Shown here piece after piece: positions 17,441-53,166 of a stretch of DNA of 64,000 nt. Numbering within the stretch: the stretch's first letter is position 1; the number at the start of each line of letters is the position of its first letter. This DNA is from Phycisphaerae bacterium (GTDB taxonomy: Bacteria > Planctomycetota > Phycisphaerae > Sedimentisphaerales > Anaerohalosphaeraceae). Where the stretch lies: NCBI GenBank assembly GCA_012729675.1, contig JAAYCR010000050.1:1-64000 (forward strand). Direction: 5' to 3'. A program made the position numbers and the translations under genes. Under the pieces are notes generated by a model. The model was not told the DNA's origin, did not search any database, and was given only the letters and a program-made list of their open reading frames with translations.

Positions 17441-17503
17441 AATTTTATCCCACATCTATCATCCATCATCTATCCTCTAACTTCCAACTTCTAACTTCTT
17501 AGA
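17441..17503. repeat. Word-like degenerate tandem tract
   Basis: Short degenerate units of the type CTATCAT, CCATCATCTATC and CTAACTTC repeat between the pilC and pilin genes. One strand is almost free of G. It is one of a series of such tracts in the window. Confidence 0.6.
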
Positions 17504-25518: not shown

Positions 25519-25555
25519 CCCCGGCACCCACAAGCTGCGCTTGAAGGTGCCACCC
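25519..25555 (+). repeat. REP palindrome, copy 1
   Basis: Imperfect hairpin: outer arms GGCACC (25523-25528) and GGTGCC (25546-25551), inner arms CAAGC and GCTTG around a TGC loop, with CA and AA internal bulges. The identity with copy 3 extends upstream to 25502 (54 bases, one mismatch). Confidence 0.85.
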
Positions 25556-25596
25556 GTCGATGAAGTCAAAACTAATCATAATGGGAGATGTGTGCT

Positions 25597-25929
25597 ATGA
25601 AAAATGAAACCAAAGAATCCATTTCACGCATTTCACTCATTGTCTTTTGCATTATTTTTCCGATAACTTTGACTTTTTCACGGAGCATTTGGGCATTTTT
25701 TGGATTTTTGCCTGTTTTGACCTTTATATTAGGTGTTGAGAAGCATCGAAAAATAGCATGTGTTGCCCTTATTGTTTTTTTATCAATTACGGTACAGTAT
25801 CAAATAGTTACCGAAAAGTTAATACATAATCAAACATTCTTGTATATTGACAGACTAAAAGAAATAAAACAAATTGATAATTTAGAAAATAAACCAAATG
25901 CATACGAACACCCCAGCGACGACAGGTGA
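25597..25929 (+). CDS. Small A+T-rich membrane protein, unknown
   Basis: 110 residues from the ATG at 25597, which has GGGAG nine bases upstream. Two or three hydrophobic segments (about 10-30, 34-48 and 55-75) and a charged C-terminus. Base composition is clearly richer in A+T than the flanking transporter gene. It lies between two REP palindromes in opposite orientation, which suggests that it entered or was maintained with the element. No family recognised. Confidence 0.55.
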   Translation: MKNETKESISRISLIVFCIIFPITLTFSRSIWAFFGFLPVLTFILGVEKHRKIACVALIVFLSITVQYQIVTEKLIHNQTFLYIDRLKEIKQIDNLENKPNAYEHPSDDR

Positions 25930-25983
25930 CCACTATACGGCTGACTAATAATCAATAGCCAATAATCAATAGTCAATCGTGAA

Positions 25984-26020
25984 GGGTGGCACCTTCAAGC
26001 GCAGCTTGTGGGTGCCGGGG
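25984..26020 (-). repeat. REP palindrome, copy 2 (inverted)
   Basis: Exact reverse complement of the 37-base core of copies 1 and 3, lying just upstream of the RAYT remnant. Together with copy 3 it forms an inverted pair around that remnant. Confidence 0.85.
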
Positions 26021-26034
26021 AGCAGACAGGCCGT

Positions 26035-26346
26035 ATGGAGTTGAAAGACGCCGACAAAATCGAAAAGCGATGCAAACGCTACGACGTGCCCGGCCACGGC
26101 CACGAGTTGACGTTTAGCTGTTATCGCCGCATCCCGCTGCTCAAGAACACAACCTTTTGCGGCTATGACCGCAACATCTTTACCCATGCGGCGGCCATCC
26201 ACAGCGTCCGTTACATCCACGCCAACCCTGTCAAACGGGGGCTTGTGCAGTGGCCGCAGGAATGGTATTATTCCAGCTATCGGCAGATGCACAGCCAGGG
26301 CGACGGCCCGCTGGACATCAACCTGAACCATTTTCCGAGACGATAA
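26035..26346 (+). pseudogene. Internally deleted RAYT (REP-associated tyrosine transposase)
   Basis: 103 codons with both ends of a RAYT/Y1 transposase but no middle. The N-terminus (YDVPGHGHELTFSCYRRIPLL) matches the family start. After a short junction the frame resumes with FCGYDRNIF and the hallmark YIHANPVKRGLV ... WYYSSYR. The central stretch that normally carries the HUH motif (x-P-x-H-V-H) and catalytic Tyr is gone, in frame. The protein cannot cut DNA as an intact RAYT does. It lies between inverted REP copies 2 and 3, the expected RAYT setting. It could still bind REP DNA through its end domains. Confidence 0.75.
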
Positions 26347-26374
26347 GGATATAAACGATGAAAACCACACAACC

Positions 26375-26411
26375 CCCCGGCACCCACAAGCTGCGCTTGA
26401 AGGTGCCACCC
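26375..26411 (+). repeat. REP palindrome, copy 3
   Basis: Same hairpin as copy 1, outer arms at 26379-26384 and 26402-26407. The matched region reaches back to 26358. It closes the RAYT remnant on the right. Confidence 0.85.
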
Positions 26412-26503
26412 ATTACAATGGACGATTCTCTATTTGTGAGATTGACAGAGACCACCTGTCGCTATAGGACTGACAAATAATCAAAAACAAGGAGAATTGA
26501 TCA

Positions 26504-34771: not shown

Positions 34772-34816
34772 TTTACCATTCTCCTATTTTGTGCCGTCTG
34801 TCAACATAAACTTAAA

Positions 34817-34920
34817 CCATGAAGCCCATGAAGAGCATGAAGAAAGAATTATGAATTCTTCATTATTCATTCTGTTTAAAAAACGGTCAAATCTGTGTTC
34901 ATCTGTGTCAAGAAAAGAAT
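34817..34920. repeat. Word-like tract (CATGAAG/ATTCATT units)
   Basis: ACCATGAAGCCCATGAAGAG is followed by ATTATGAATTCTTCATTATT and later by ATCTGTGTTCATCTGTGTC. Translated, the first part reads as NHEAHEEHEE, a low-complexity peptide well known as a false ORF product. It fills the gap between the esterase and YhcH genes. Confidence 0.7.
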
Positions 34921-35972: not shown

Positions 35973-36294
35973 AAGAACAAAGCCCTGCTCTTGTGCTTAC
36001 ACACACGACGCTGCTGGTTGTTGATCGCACCGAAGGTGCAGCATAATTCAGCCCAGGGCAACGCCCTGGGTGTCAGGTTCCCAAATTACCTCTCGCTCTG
36101 AAAGGGCAACATCGCCATTCTCTTTCTATATTGCCCTTACAGGGCGTTTGGTATTTCACTATGTCACTGACCCCAGCCCGTTGGGCTGGGCTAAGCTATT
36201 TTGGCCTTTCAGGCTGCTTGACATTATCGCACTAATCGAGCAGCTTTCGTCGCCCCACTAATATTTTTAATCTCTGTGTTCTTGTATATTGAAT
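35973..36294. repeat. String of palindromic hairpins, copy A
   Basis: Successive hairpins GCACC-GAA-GGTGC, CCCAGGGC-AAC-GCCCTGGG, GCCCT-TAC-AGGGC and CAGCCC-GTT-GGGCTG, then CTAAGCTATTTTGGCCTTTC. No gene is present. The right half recurs inverted at 47799-47895 with compensatory stem changes (GCCCT/AGGGC here, GCCCC/GGGGC there). It is an interspersed intergenic repeat family. Confidence 0.75.
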
Positions 36295-38872: not shown

Positions 38873-39428
38873 AACCGCTTCCCAGTCAAAAGGTTAAGTT
38901 TTGTTCCGCAACCCGCTAAAAACCCTTAGTATAGCCGTTATTATAAAAATTACAACCCCTGAAACCCCTTTAACGTCGCTGTCAACATGTTTGAGAATTT
39001 TTTCTGGCCGTGTTGATTTGGAATATTGTGTGATAATCCTGCATTTTGAGCCCGCAGGGCGACATCGTGTAGCCACGGGCGTAAGCCCGTGGTAAATAGG
39101 GCAGCCATCCCCCTCTTTTAGCCCGCGCAGCGGGCGATATGGGCCTTTCATACCGCCCGCTGCGCGGGCTTGGAGAAGCGTGTATCGGCTTGTTATCCCC
39201 GCCCTTACGGGCGGGGCTACACGATAACGCCTCTTACAGAGGCTCTCGAAAAAAGCTTGCCAGAAAATATTCTCACACACGTCAACGGTCAACGGATACA
39301 CAAAACTTTCCGGTTGACACCACGCCGCAATCGGGTATATTAATTGGCGGGGATGGGGTTCCCCGTATAACCGCCGCTGTGGCTGATGACTCCTGCCGAA
39401 CTGCAAGGAATGTCTGTCAGGAGTTGCG
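38873..39428. repeat. Intergenic region with a second palindrome string
   Basis: 556 bases without a gene. Between 39048 and 39235 there are five hairpins: GCCC-GCA-GGGC, CCACGGGC-GTAA-GCCCGTGG, GCCCGC-GCA-GCGGGC, GCCCGC-TGC-GCGGGC and CCCCGCCC-TTA-CGGGCGGGG (last one slightly offset). The string is framed by GTGTAGCC and GGCTACAC, which are themselves complementary. The rest, including the antiporter leader, shows nothing I can name. Confidence 0.7.
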
Positions 39429-43991: not shown

Positions 43992-44945
43992 TTAAGGGGT
44001 TGCGGACACAGCACGGTCGTTCCATGCCGCCTCGACGATTTGCCGACACAGGTCGGGCGTCGGAATCCCCGCCTTTCGCGCCGCCATGGGCAGCAGCGAA
44101 TGACTGGTAAAGCCCGGCAGCGTGTTGATTTCGAGCACATACGGCGTGCCGTCGTCGGCCAGGATAAAATCGACGCGCCCCAGATGGCGGCAGTGCAGCG
44201 CGTTAAAACAATCCAGTGCTGTCTGCTGAATCCGCGCCGTCAACGCCGCATCGGCGAGGGTGTCAAACAGGTACTCGGTCGTGTCGGCGATATACTTGGC
44301 GTTAAAATCATAAAAGGCCGCATGGGTGCGAATCTCGATAATCGGTAGGGCCTGCCCGTTGACGATGCCGACGGTGATCTCGCGCCCGTTGATGAACGAT
44401 TCGATCATGCAGTCGCCGAAGGTCTTAAAGCACTGCACGCCCTTTGCCGCCGCCGTCGCCGCATCCTCAACGATCTCAACGCCGACGCTGCTGCCCTGCC
44501 GGACGGGCTTGACGACCAGTCGCTCGGCAAAGCCGTCAAGTTTTGCCGTCAGCGTTTGCTCGGTATCGCACGGCCCGACAATCACCTGCCGCGGCGCCAC
44601 GGCGCCGGCTCGCGCAAAAATGCGCTTGCTCTCGACCTTGTCAAAGGCGTTTCGGCTGGCCTCAGCCCCCGATCCGGTAAAAACAAGCCGCCGCCGCTCC
44701 AGAATCGACTGCAACTGGCCGTCCTCGCCGAACTGCCCGTGCAGCACCAGAAAAAACACGTCGATGGACGCAGCGTCCAGAATCCGCATATCTTCCGGCG
44801 TGATATCCGACAGAACGACATCCATCCCCGCCTCCCGCAGCGCCGCATACACCGTGCGCCCGCTGTTGAGGCTGACCTCACGCTCCGACCCGACCCCGCC
44901 GGACAGGACGGCGACTTTAAAGTTGTTTTTAAGTTTGTGTTGCAT
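43992..44945 (-). CDS. ddl: D-alanine--D-alanine ligase
   Basis: 317 residues, ATP-grasp. N-terminal KVAVLSGGVGSEREVSLNSG is the D-Ala binding region; VFFLVLHGQFGEDGQLQ follows; LVVKPVRQGSSVGVEIV is the phosphate-binding loop and CRHLGRVDFILAD/YVLEINTLPGFTSHSLLP the catalytic Mg and D-Ala site. It makes the D-Ala-D-Ala dipeptide for peptidoglycan. It lies between ftsQ and a four-helix-bundle insert that separates it from murB. No Shine-Dalgarno is visible at its ATG, possibly because the insertion replaced its native leader. Confidence 0.95.
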   Translation of the reverse strand: MQHKLKNNFKVAVLSGGVGSEREVSLNSGRTVYAALREAGMDVVLSDITPEDMRILDAASIDVFFLVLHGQFGEDGQLQSILERRRLVFTGSGAEASRNAFDKVESKRIFARAGAVAPRQVIVGPCDTEQTLTAKLDGFAERLVVKPVRQGSSVGVEIVEDAATAAAKGVQCFKTFGDCMIESFINGREITVGIVNGQALPIIEIRTHAAFYDFNAKYIADTTEYLFDTLADAALTARIQQTALDCFNALHCRHLGRVDFILADDGTPYVLEINTLPGFTSHSLLPMAARKAGIPTPDLCRQIVEAAWNDRAVSATP

Positions 44946-44954
44946 TGGGAGCAG

Positions 44955-44992
44955 TGTAGTTCTTAGTTCGTAGTTCGTTGTTCGTAGTTTAG
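44955..44992. repeat. Word-like tract, left arm around the four-helix gene
   Basis: TTCTTAGTTCGTAGTTCGTT followed by GTTCGTAGTTT. Inverted relative to the tract at 45400-45436. It contains the stop codon of the four-helix gene. Confidence 0.75.
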
Positions 44993-45372
44993 CATTGGCC
45001 TCGGCCGGGAAAGCCGAGGCTGCGTTTCAAGCCGCTAATCATTTTAGACAGTTCTGAAAAAGAAAGCCGTAAATGAGAATGTTGTTCTTCATAGATAAAT
45101 TTTCTTCTTTTACAGATTTCCAATAGCGCGACACATTCAAAAACGGAACCCTGCGCAATATCCAAAAACCGTCGATAATCCGTTTTACTGCGGGATGTTC
45201 CCTCTGCGAGATTCAAAGAAATAGAAACCGCCGCTCTGCGAAACTGCGAAATTAATCCATATAGTTCTTCTTTCGGAAAAGATTTTGTTTGGTCATAGAC
45301 ATAATCAATGACATCCAAAGCTTTCTGGTACACGATAAGTTCTTCAAATTGAAAGGTTATTTCACTGTGCAT
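44989..45372 (-). CDS. Four-helix-bundle protein (S23/IVP family)
   Basis: 127 residues from the ATG at 45372 with GGAAGAG upstream; GTG at 45387 is an alternative. Family hallmarks are ELIVYQKALDVIDYVYDQT, LISQFRRAAVSISLNLAEGT and RFLDIAQGSVFECVALLEIC. Such proteins form a pentameric helical bundle; some are encoded in 23S rRNA intervening sequences, others by free-standing cassettes, and the function is unclear. Here it sits inside the mur-ddl-ftsQ operon, bounded by inverted word-like tracts, so it seems to be an inserted cassette transcribed with its host operon. Confidence 0.88.
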   Translation of the reverse strand: MHSEITFQFEELIVYQKALDVIDYVYDQTKSFPKEELYGLISQFRRAAVSISLNLAEGTSRSKTDYRRFLDIAQGSVFECVALLEICKRRKFIYEEQHSHLRLSFSELSKMISGLKRSLGFPGRGQC

Positions 45373-45399
45373 TCGATACTCTTCCACTGCTCGGCTGCC

Positions 45400-45436
45400 A
45401 TGAACTACGAACTACGAACTATGAACTACGAACTAA
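45400..45436. repeat. Word-like tract, right arm around the four-helix gene
   Basis: ATGAACTACGAACTACGAAC followed by TATGAACTACGAACTAA. The ACGAACTAC unit is the reverse complement of the GTAGTTCGT unit at 44955-44992. It abuts the murB stop codon. Confidence 0.75.
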
Positions 45437-45437
45437 T

Positions 45438-46316
45438 CTACCAAATTTCAATCTCCAGCTCCAGCTCCACGTCAAACTTGTCCTGCACCTTTTGCCGCAC
45501 CAGTTCGATGAGCTGTTTGACATCGGCGCTTTTGCAGCCGCTTTCGGTCGTGATGAAGTTGGCGTGTTTTTCGCTGACAAAGGCCCCGCCGACCTGCGTG
45601 CCCTTCAACCCCGCGCGGTCAATCAGTGCCCCGGCGCTCATCCCGCGCGGATTCTTGAAGATGCACCCGGCGTTGCGCGCGTTCAGCGGCTGGGTGTTCT
45701 TCTTGTAAATCCACACTTCCTTAACCGTCTTGAGCATCTGGTCGGGGTCGGACTGCGTCAGTTCCAGCGTCGCGTCCAGAATGATCGGTGTGGTGATATT
45801 GACCCAGCGATAATCGAACACCAACTCCGGCTTGGCCTTCTCGAAAATCGTCCCGTGTATATCCATCACGGTTACGCTCTGCGTGCGCGAGCCGATGTCG
45901 CCGAAGTTGCCGCCGGCGTTCATCCGCACGGCCCCGCCCACCGAGCCGGGGATGCCCGTCAAGGCCTCCAGCCCGCACAGCCCCTTGCGCACCGAGTCCA
46001 GCACCAGCTTGTTCAGGTTCACCCCGGCCCCGGCCTTGAGCGTTGTGCCGTCAAACGCCACCTGCGTAAACGCCTCGGTGTCCAGCTTGAGCACTACGCC
46101 CTTGATGCCCTCGTCGCTGACCAGCAGATTCGACCCAAGCCCCAGCACCCGCATCGGCACCTGCTCGGCCGCGCACCGCTGCACAATGTCCTGAAGCTGC
46201 TCGACACTCGTTGGCCGCGCCAAGTACTCGGCCACACCGCCAAGGCCGTACCACGTCAGCTCTTTGAGCGAGGCGTTTTCTTTAACGATGTTCTCTAAGC
46301 CACTGAATAATGTCAT
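45438..46316 (-). CDS. murB: UDP-N-acetylmuramate dehydrogenase
   Basis: 292 residues from the ATG at 46316. FAD-binding type 4 domain (LKELTWYGLGGVAEYLARP, LGLGSNLLVSDEGIKGV, GIPGSVGGAVRMNAG) and MurB C-terminal domain (NPRGMSAGALIDRAGLKGTQ, GGAFVSEKHANFITT). Reduces enolpyruvyl-UDP-GlcNAc with NADPH to UDP-MurNAc. Short type IIb-like form without the Tyr-loop insertion. The start overlaps the end of murC by 35 bases, so the two are translationally coupled. Confidence 0.95.
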   Translation of the reverse strand: MTLFSGLENIVKENASLKELTWYGLGGVAEYLARPTSVEQLQDIVQRCAAEQVPMRVLGLGSNLLVSDEGIKGVVLKLDTEAFTQVAFDGTTLKAGAGVNLNKLVLDSVRKGLCGLEALTGIPGSVGGAVRMNAGGNFGDIGSRTQSVTVMDIHGTIFEKAKPELVFDYRWVNITTPIILDATLELTQSDPDQMLKTVKEVWIYKKNTQPLNARNAGCIFKNPRGMSAGALIDRAGLKGTQVGGAFVSEKHANFITTESGCKSADVKQLIELVRQKVQDKFDVELELEIEIW

Positions 46317-47676
46317 CGGAAACCTTCCAAATCGTCCCGGCACCCATCGTCATGACCAGGTCGCCGTCTCGGACGTGTTGCGTTAAATGGTTCAAAATAC
46401 CCGCAAAATCATTGATAAACAACGCCTCGCACTGCCGCTGGCGGATGCGTTCGACCAGCGTCTCGGCGTTGACCGTGCTTTTGCTCTCGGCGGTGTCCCG
46501 CACGAAGTAAATCTCCGGCACAATCGTAATATCGGCAAGCTTAAAGCTTTCCGCGAAATCATCAAGCAAAAAACGGGTTCGGCTGTACTGATGCGGCTGA
46601 AAAACGCACCACAGCCGCTTGGGTTGATACCGCTGCCGTACCGCCTCCAGCGATGCTCGAATCTCGGTCGGGTGGTGGGCGTAGTCGTCCAGCACCGTGA
46701 TGCCGCCGACCTGCCCTTTGAGCATCAGCCGCCGGTCAATGCCGGAAAACGCCCCCAGCCGCTCGACGACGACCGATTCCGGCACGCCCGCCTCAAGTGC
46801 CGCGGCCGCGACAACCAGCGCATTATACACATTGTGCTTGCCCGGCAGCCCAATCCGCACGCGCCCCAGCCCCCGGCCGCTGCGGATCAAGTCAAACGCA
46901 TAAAGCCCCTCTACAAGCTCCAAATTACCCGCCGTCACATCGCAGTGCGACTCCAGCCCCACCGTCACGACCTGTCGGCCGTCTTTCTGCCGTCGCAGTA
47001 CGCGAGCGACGTTTTTATCGGCCCCATTGGCGATCAGCACCCCGCCCGGCTTGATCCCGGAGGCAAAATCGCTGAATGCCTCGACGATCTCGTCCTCATT
47101 TCGATAATAATCCAGATGATCCTGCTCTATATTAAGGATCACCCCGATGGACGGATGCAGGTTCAAAAAGCTGCGGTCATACTCGCACGCCTCGGCCACA
47201 AACAGCCGTCCGTTGCCCGCCCCGCTGGAGCCGCCCAGTTGCCCGATGTCGGCCCCGATGATGTAGTTTGGTTTAAGTCCAGCCTCCGTAAGCAGATGTG
47301 TAATCCACGCACTGGCGGTACTCTTGCCGTGCGTCCCTGCCACCGCAATCCCCGTGTACGCCTCAAACAGCCGTCCGAGCATCTCGGCATACTTATAGAT
47401 CGGACAGCCCAACTCCCCGGCCCGCGCCAGTTCCGGGTTGCTCGCCGTCACCGCCGCACTGATGATCACCGCATCGACCGCCGCCGGCATATTCTCCGGC
47501 GTATGCCCGATATGAATCTGTGCGCCCTGCCGCTGCAAGTCGTCCGTAACTGCGCTTTGGCACATATCCGACCCCGACACCACCGCCCCGCGGCGCATCA
47601 GCAGTTTGGCCAGCCCGCTGGTCCCGACACCGCCAATCCCGATAAAGTGAAACCGCTTCCCTGAACTTCGTTCCAT
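46282..47676 (-). CDS. murC: UDP-N-acetylmuramate--L-alanine ligase
   Basis: 464 residues. N-terminal domain with FHFIGIGGVGTSGLAKLLMR, central ATPase domain with P-loop GTHGKSTASAWITHL, and MurC/D/E/F C-terminal domain (DDYAHHPTEIRASLEAVRQR). Adds L-Ala to UDP-MurNAc in the cytoplasm. First gene of the murC-murB-(four-helix)-ddl-ftsQ run. Upstream members of a classical division cluster (murG, ftsW) are not present in the window; a repeat-filled gap lies there instead. Confidence 0.96.
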   Translation of the reverse strand: MERSSGKRFHFIGIGGVGTSGLAKLLMRRGAVVSGSDMCQSAVTDDLQRQGAQIHIGHTPENMPAAVDAVIISAAVTASNPELARAGELGCPIYKYAEMLGRLFEAYTGIAVAGTHGKSTASAWITHLLTEAGLKPNYIIGADIGQLGGSSGAGNGRLFVAEACEYDRSFLNLHPSIGVILNIEQDHLDYYRNEDEIVEAFSDFASGIKPGGVLIANGADKNVARVLRRQKDGRQVVTVGLESHCDVTAGNLELVEGLYAFDLIRSGRGLGRVRIGLPGKHNVYNALVVAAAALEAGVPESVVVERLGAFSGIDRRLMLKGQVGGITVLDDYAHHPTEIRASLEAVRQRYQPKRLWCVFQPHQYSRTRFLLDDFAESFKLADITIVPEIYFVRDTAESKSTVNAETLVERIRQRQCEALFINDFAGILNHLTQHVRDGDLVMTMGAGTIWKVSDDIIQWLREHR

Positions 47677-47798: not shown

Positions 47799-47895
47799 CT
47801 CGGCCTGAAAGGCCAAAATACCTTAGCCCAGCCCGGGGGGCTGGGTTGGAAATCGCCCAAGACCTCCGTTTCGCCCCGCAGGGGCAGCAGTCACC
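47799..47895. repeat. Palindrome string, copy B (inverted)
   Basis: In reverse complement it contains GCCCC-TGC-GGGGC and, about 28 bases on, CAGCCC-CCC-GGGCTG followed by GGCTAAGGTATTTTGGCCTT. Same order and spacing as copy A at 35973-36294, with different bases in the first stem that keep pairing. Confidence 0.7.
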
Positions 47896-53115: not shown

Positions 53116-53166
53116 CTCTTTTTCTGACTCCTGACTCCTGACTCCTGACTTCTGACTTCTGTTAAT
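53116..53166 (-). repeat. 7-bp tandem repeat carrying Shine-Dalgarno-like motifs
   Basis: On the minus strand units AGTCAGG and AGTCAGA repeat six times, giving AGGAG three times within 40 bases upstream of the MDR ATG. On the plus strand it reads CTGACTC/CTGACTT repeats. Slippage would change the number of ribosome-binding-like motifs without moving the reading frame. Confidence 0.7.

Follow-up and report, generated by a model that had tools for sequence, protein, structure and literature searches.

A four-helix-bundle gene between inverted heptamer arrays at murB-ddl suggests a widespread, overlooked kind of mobile repeat-and-protein element

Why does a small gene for a four-helix-bundle protein lie between murB and ddl, enclosed by two short tandem arrays that mirror each other? 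The locus is part of a 64,000-nt stretch of DNA from a Phycisphaerae bacterium (contig JAAYCR010000050.1 of assembly GCA_012729675.1; hereafter the window), and its features are collected in Table 1. The initial annotation had read the gene as a cassette that was inserted into the operon between inverted tracts. The gene, its operon context and the two complementary bracketing tracts were all confirmed in place by TRF, inverted-repeat and profile matches.

Table 1. Features of the murB-ddl locus, in window coordinates
Feature	Position	Strand	Remark
murB, host gene upstream of the cassette	45438..46343	-	ORF and profile match
Upstream arm (gene sense), 4.9 copies	45402..45435	+	GAACTAC on the + strand, equal to TAGTTCG in the transcribed sense
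Four-helix-bundle gene, PF05635/TIGR02436, 132 aa	45387..44989	-	GTG start at 45387; profile match
Alternative in-frame ATG of the four-helix gene	about 45372	-	
Hairpin GCCTCGGC-7 nt-GCCGAGGC	44998..45020	.	Overlaps the last codons of the four-helix gene
Downstream arm, 4.9 copies of the inverted heptamer (GTAGTTC)	44956..44989	-	TRF
ddl (D-Ala-D-Ala ligase), host gene downstream of the cassette	43992..44945	-	ORF and profile match

The two arrays that TRF finds around the gene each hold 4.9 copies of a 7-nt unit in 34 nt, and together they form a 33-nt inverted repeat that is 91% complementary. In the sense of transcription the first arm starts 2 nt past the murB stop codon and the second finishes 10 nt short of the ddl ATG (ORF starts were assigned mechanically). 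With up to 2 mismatches allowed, the two-unit motif GAACTACGAACTA has 8 matches in the window against 0.40 expected, and all 8 fall within these two arrays. When the cassette RNA is folded the arms pair, at -143.7 kcal/mol and a z of -2.97, a behaviour shared with the intervening sequence of Coxiella (PMC4990558). No rRNA match occurs in the window, and the cassette sits between murB and ddl, outside any rRNA gene. The hairpin at the end of the gene may be a separate dispersed palindrome, since a similar one is found in the murB-ddl junction of the relative G232, which has no gene. It had also been proposed that the insertion displaced the native leader of ddl, leaving it without a visible ribosome binding site. 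There is indeed no clear site at ddl here, but the argument is weak: by eye, several relatives whose junction is empty lack one as well (e.g. G213, G211), while others have one (G206, G142, G222), so displacement of a leader is not well supported.

Where murB and ddl are adjacent in relatives of the order, most junctions are short and gene-less (38-132 nt in many), which indicates that the four-helix gene at this site is an insert. Intact copies with tracts are found in G000 and G212 (whose protein is 66-69% identical), G201, of the same genus, holds a decayed copy that has suffered an internal deletion and is still flanked by tracts, and G328 carries a further copy with tracts just upstream of ddl. 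A gene at murB-ddl without tracts was not seen, the G000, G212, G201 and G328 copies all being tract-flanked. In G207 the junction holds no gene but an inverted pair from a different heptamer family. The cassette reading thus holds at this site, and a search beyond it also came out in its favour, as four-helix genes with the same tracts were found at other operon junctions and analogous tracts occur throughout the family.

Bracketing by mirrored repeat arrays turns out to be the normal state of the PF05635 family across many phyla. The genome under study has 11 PF05635 genes, 10 of which are bracketed by inverted short tandem arrays, nearly all with different units (GAACTAC, CAGTTAA, ATGTTAA, CGATGGA, ATTGATT, AAAAGGC and one octamer). 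We scored each gene by local alignment for the complementarity of its upstream flank to its downstream flank; 10 of the 11 score 25-68, against a median of 16 and a 90th percentile of 23 for 193 small ORFs of the same DNA, a control whose high scorers are largely the four-helix genes themselves. In a set of 109 genes from the phylum and relatives, 66% reach a score of at least 30, compared with 1.7% of pairs of flanks taken from different genes; by this strict measure roughly one four-helix gene in three lacks a strong inverted repeat. Arrays of 7/8-nt units lie in 95 upstream (87%) and 93 downstream (85%) flanks of the 109 genes, and in 21 of 244 control windows (9%). The commonest array length in this set is 4-5 units, and when the arms are pooled, repeats appear at lags 7/14/21 or 8/16 only, with a best period of 7 in 58 and of 8 in 30 of 102. 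The same layout, often with octamers such as AGGCACAA, is seen in Flavobacteria, Nitrospirae, Deltaproteobacteria, Verrucomicrobia, Kiritimatiellae and others, and on cyanobacterial plasmids 7 of 8 four-helix genes are bracketed, one of them between cas6 and cas4. Up to 22 PF05635/TIGR02436 copies per genome were counted among the genomes examined. Many of the genomes surveyed are draft MAGs and the counts are taken over related sequences. Bro-N genes of the same genomes, used as a negative control, are bracketed in 1 of 14 cases, and the idea that Bro-N is further cargo of the tracts was dropped on this count; the sole case (L042:4172-5181) lies between inverted GAACTAAG arrays of the window heptamer family.

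A few other kinds of gene were met between inverted repeats. GxxExxY genes (PDDEXK_3, PF13366) of relatives (L414-L443, e.g. L417, L419, L420, L436) have inverted arrays of about 9 nt (CCACGAAGTTCACGAAGGACACGAAG; CACAGATTTCACTGATTACACTGATT), and 15 of 22 such loci score at least 30, against 8% of mismatched flanks. A DUF7674 gene (L068:1965-2575) is enclosed by the arms of a 95-nt inverted repeat with 93% complementarity, in which ATTGACT heptamers occur, and an HNH_5 nuclease-like gene (L062:1696-2406) lies between inverted CCACAGAGG-type 9-mer arrays. The window itself holds tandem arrays at 53124-53161, 17453-17499, 25947-25977 and 34816-34843, with the units CTGACTC, CATCTAT/TCTAACT, AATAGTC (7 nt) and ACCATGAAG (9 nt), the last being of the type that flanks GxxExxY genes elsewhere. 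At 25519-26434 a 40-nt sequence, CCCCGGCACCC...GGTGCCACCC, occurs in three copies of alternating orientation that adjoin AATAGTC arrays. Matches to a fluoride riboswitch (39340-39402) and to Acido-Lenti-1 RNA (36026-36070 and 47801-47845) were also recorded in the window.

Does the repeat unit belong to the protein, or merely to the site? When the window protein was searched against 161 genomes of the order, a clear break appeared near 50% identity. TAGTTCG-type arrays flank all 16 homologues that are at least 50% identical, on one side or both and without any change of sense, and they are absent from the 14 homologues below 50%. The 16 sit at unrelated operon junctions: murB-ddl, fumarase-ychF, a pilin-like gene cluster (so labelled by eye from N-terminal motifs, Pfam giving no match) and after another ATP-grasp gene. 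The count of 16 is not phylogenetically independent and amounts to about four to five junctions rather than 16 events. Over all pairs, the similarity of the tracts rises with protein identity in the sense orientation only, and among pairs at least 60% identical 32% have similar arms in sense and none in antisense. The correlation between unit and protein is weak globally and sharp only within clades: a Mantel test over all pairs gave 0.108 (rho 0.11), with 0.135 as the largest of 1000 permutations, which is weak because the units differ wholly between clades.

The arrays also occur without the gene. That of the window heptamer has about 45 further sites in the genome, nearly all intergenic and with no four-helix gene. 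GAACTAC arrays were found at 34 sites in 478 kb of the genome's own DNA against 1.1 for shuffled units, in a sample that includes stretches chosen for this array. Across 40 relatives, more than 5 matches to a three-unit array were found only in G000, G212 and G201, which are the genomes that carry the murB-ddl gene or its remnant; G214 and others have a few. The flanks of the genome's remaining four-helix genes likewise match further array families found in it. Where solo GAACTA arrays (L042-L081) are sense-oriented between co-directional genes, 9 of 12 end 0-27 nt before the next start codon. In another genome, G127, a 172-bp gene-less inverted heptamer pair is present in two copies that are 99% alike (L228:530-701 and 1082-1253) and flank an intact four-helix gene; the pair resembles a deletion derivative, as its loop looks, by eye, like the gene's final part. 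In rRNA-operon spacers of G127 (L363, L369; 23S-5S and the tRNA side of 23S) there are further pairs of this heptamer family, also inverted and gene-less. The idea that G127 gene-less pairs are intervening sequences within 23S rRNA was rejected, as Rfam places two of them in rRNA-operon spacers and the third has no rRNA match.

Evidence for movement comes from orientation and from closely related genomes. Insertion in the same sense as the host operon, noted at first for murB-ddl, is a strong general rule: relative to two co-directional neighbours, 68 four-helix genes have the same sense and 2 the opposite. In two Aquimarina that are ~93% alike in the compared region, two sites are filled in one and empty in the other, and the cassette of the filled sites occupies the space from the stop codon to the next start. 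No target-site duplication was found at these two filled/empty pairs. At a third site both are filled with cassettes that are unrelated in DNA, whose proteins are 40% identical and whose heptamers are of the GTATTGA and CTAGA types, and in the flanks identity stays at 88-94% until the tract edges are reached. As the boundaries of this swap fall exactly at the tract edges, the arms mark the ends of an exchangeable unit. A second candidate swap, between the Flavobacterium loci L274 and L310, was first suggested by dS and then dropped, as the alignment is continuous. No genome was found with near-identical copies of the gene at two of its sites, which would have marked a recent transposition.

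The protein belongs clearly to its family, with 113.4 bits against PF05635 (cut-off 33.8) and 105.3 bits against TIGR02436 (cut-off 24). Its AlphaFold2 model has four helices at a mean pLDDT of 89.5, and the top Foldseek matches are 2gsc (TM 0.82, E 2.7e-8) and 2rld, followed by Avd 4dwl. The S23-family structures 2gsc and 2rld have five chains each as deposited, and Xcc0516 is described as a pentamer by Lin et al. 2006, as cited in PMC4990558. By kinship with these five-chain relatives, the window protein probably acts as a pentameric ring. Since the net charge of four-helix proteins is only mildly positive (median +3; +1 for the window protein), it is this kinship that points to binding of nucleic acid. 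Most pairs are under purifying selection, with dN/dS of 0.01-0.16; for G000 against G212 the value is 0.145, at a dS near saturation. At murB-ddl the protein is kept under constraint, and it can be lost.

Among known systems, the intervening sequence of 23S rRNA with its S23p/IVP ORF (Leptospira, Coxiella) has the same protein family, ~430 nt, terminal inverted repeats and an ORF in the loop of the hairpin. In Coxiella, GACAGAT heptamers stand ahead of the S23p ORF (PMC4990558). One mark of such a sequence, a stem formed around the ORF by terminal inverted repeats, is found here too (33 nt, 91%; z -2.97), but the cassette is flanked by protein genes of an operon and does not lie in rRNA, its tract family is dispersed in the genome, and the units vary by clade. 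In our best reading, the 23S rRNA intervening sequence would be a special case of the repeat-plus-protein cassette.

REP/REPIN sequences with their RAYT (TnpA_REP) offer a different comparison: diverse proteins each have their own short inverted repeat, with many gene-less copies and no ordinary transposon ends. As there, dispersed gene-less repeats match those that flank the gene here. Unlike RAYT, the protein folds as a four-helix bundle in which no catalytic domain is known, it gave no HUH (Y1) nuclease match, and its repeat is a tandem array of 7/8-mers rather than a palindrome of 20-30 nt. The cassette also differs from insertion sequences and transposons in having no transposase and, at the two Aquimarina pairs, no target-site duplication; no transposase or nuclease domain was found in it, the profile search of the window protein matching only PF05635 and bAvd. 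Avd of diversity-generating retroelements has the same fold by Foldseek (4dwl, 8ub7) and a weak HMM kinship, with scores below cut-off for PF22296 (30.3 bits, cut-off 40) and NF033474 (27.7 bits, cut-off 80). In the particle of these retroelements (8ub7 and related entries), the Avd-type fold accompanies a reverse transcriptase in a ribonucleoprotein. No reverse transcriptase lies beside the four-helix gene; the three of this genome are on contigs C80, C26 and C55, not C40. Action in trans by these enzymes, by eye two group-II-intron-like and one other, was considered and set aside, there being no link to the tracts.

Orphan arrays such as the STRRs of cyanobacteria, the GGGAATC heptamers of Xanthomonas (PMC4692102) and the octamers of Geobacter (PMC2700814) are alike in that they often have 4-5 units, are largely intergenic, form inverted pairs in part and occur in many copies. 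The Xanthomonas/Nostoc paper counted 186 heptamer sites in Xcc, with 70 inverted pairs, and found no function (PMC4692102), and the Geobacter genome paper listed octamer arrays that occur in pairs and took them for the sites of an unidentified regulator (PMC2700814). Such arrays were described without an associated protein, and the link to four-helix genes is made here, for cyanobacterial plasmids. A literature search that excluded preprints and most subscription papers found nothing that links such arrays to four-helix genes in general.

What, then, could account for a gene so regularly framed by its own repeat? Chance can be set aside, since the counts already refute the idea that the tracts are ordinary microsatellites with a gene between them by accident: the heptamer is indeed common in the genome, but Bro-N genes are bracketed in 1 of 14 cases, arrays of this kind occur in 9% of control windows, and the unit tracks the protein clade. 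It is also quite improbable that the four-helix gene serves its host, in stress, defence or otherwise, and that the arms are mere recombination sites for the exchange of alleles. Purifying selection and the cassette swap between the two Aquimarina would fit such a role, but presence is patchy even within a genus, the copy of G201 has decayed, gene-less arrays are dispersed, and a defence library gave no match for the protein.

The main rival is an autoregulated RNA-processing element that does not move, in which cleavage or translation would be controlled by the protein, bound to its own mRNA where the arms pair and to solo arrays in other mRNAs, and the arrays would multiply by slippage and recombination only. 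The pairing of the arms in the folded transcript, the 68:2 bias towards operon sense and the position of 9 of 12 sense-oriented solo arrays just ahead of a start codon all speak for it, as does the Coxiella intervening sequence with GACAGAT heptamers, which is excised by RNase III (PMC4990558). It is nevertheless the less likely account in our view, as the presence of one clade with one unit at unrelated junctions, the swap at tract edges and the patchy presence imply that the whole unit must move.

We therefore favour, with a probability of roughly 0.6, the reading that 45435-44956 is a mobile or formerly mobile repeat-plus-protein cassette, in which an S23/23S-IVP four-helix gene lies between inverted, clade-specific heptamer arrays in the manner of REP and RAYT. 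The observations that it joins are the architecture, its recurrence across phyla, the clade-linked unit, the gene-less dispersal, the insertion in operon sense and the filled, decayed, empty and swapped sites. Given the pentameric relatives, the ribonucleoprotein-linked Avd fold and the arm-paired fold of the RNA, a REP/RAYT-like pairing of repeat and protein is the best-supported model. In this model a pentameric ring would bind the repeat of its own cassette, most probably in the form of RNA or single-stranded DNA; once bound, the protein would assist the spread or persistence of tract copies, whether or not they carry the gene, as RAYT does for REP. Within the polycistronic mRNA, paired arms would fold the cassette away, in the manner of the 23S rRNA intervening sequence, and it could then lie among essential genes and use their promoter for its own expression. 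Because the arrays have about 5 units and the relatives are pentameric, one 7-nt unit may correspond to one subunit of the five-fold protein.

A broader proposal, which we advance tentatively and at slightly less than even odds, is that a pan-bacterial class of mobile elements pairs a pentameric four-helix protein with a clade-specific 7/8-nt array. The heptamers and octamers of cyanobacteria, Xanthomonas and Geobacter would then be gene-less copies, the 23S intervening sequence a specialised site, and GxxExxY genes with 9-nt arrays a parallel class. PF05635/TIGR02436 is a widespread, uncharacterised family of small proteins, and dispersed heptamers have long been unexplained. With the clade-linked unit, the family gains an activity that can be tested, and the repeats gain a likely owner. 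The rRNA intervening sequences would fall into a general class of elements whose place is between operon genes, and our results suggest that these elements are a widespread and overlooked kind of mobile repeat and protein.
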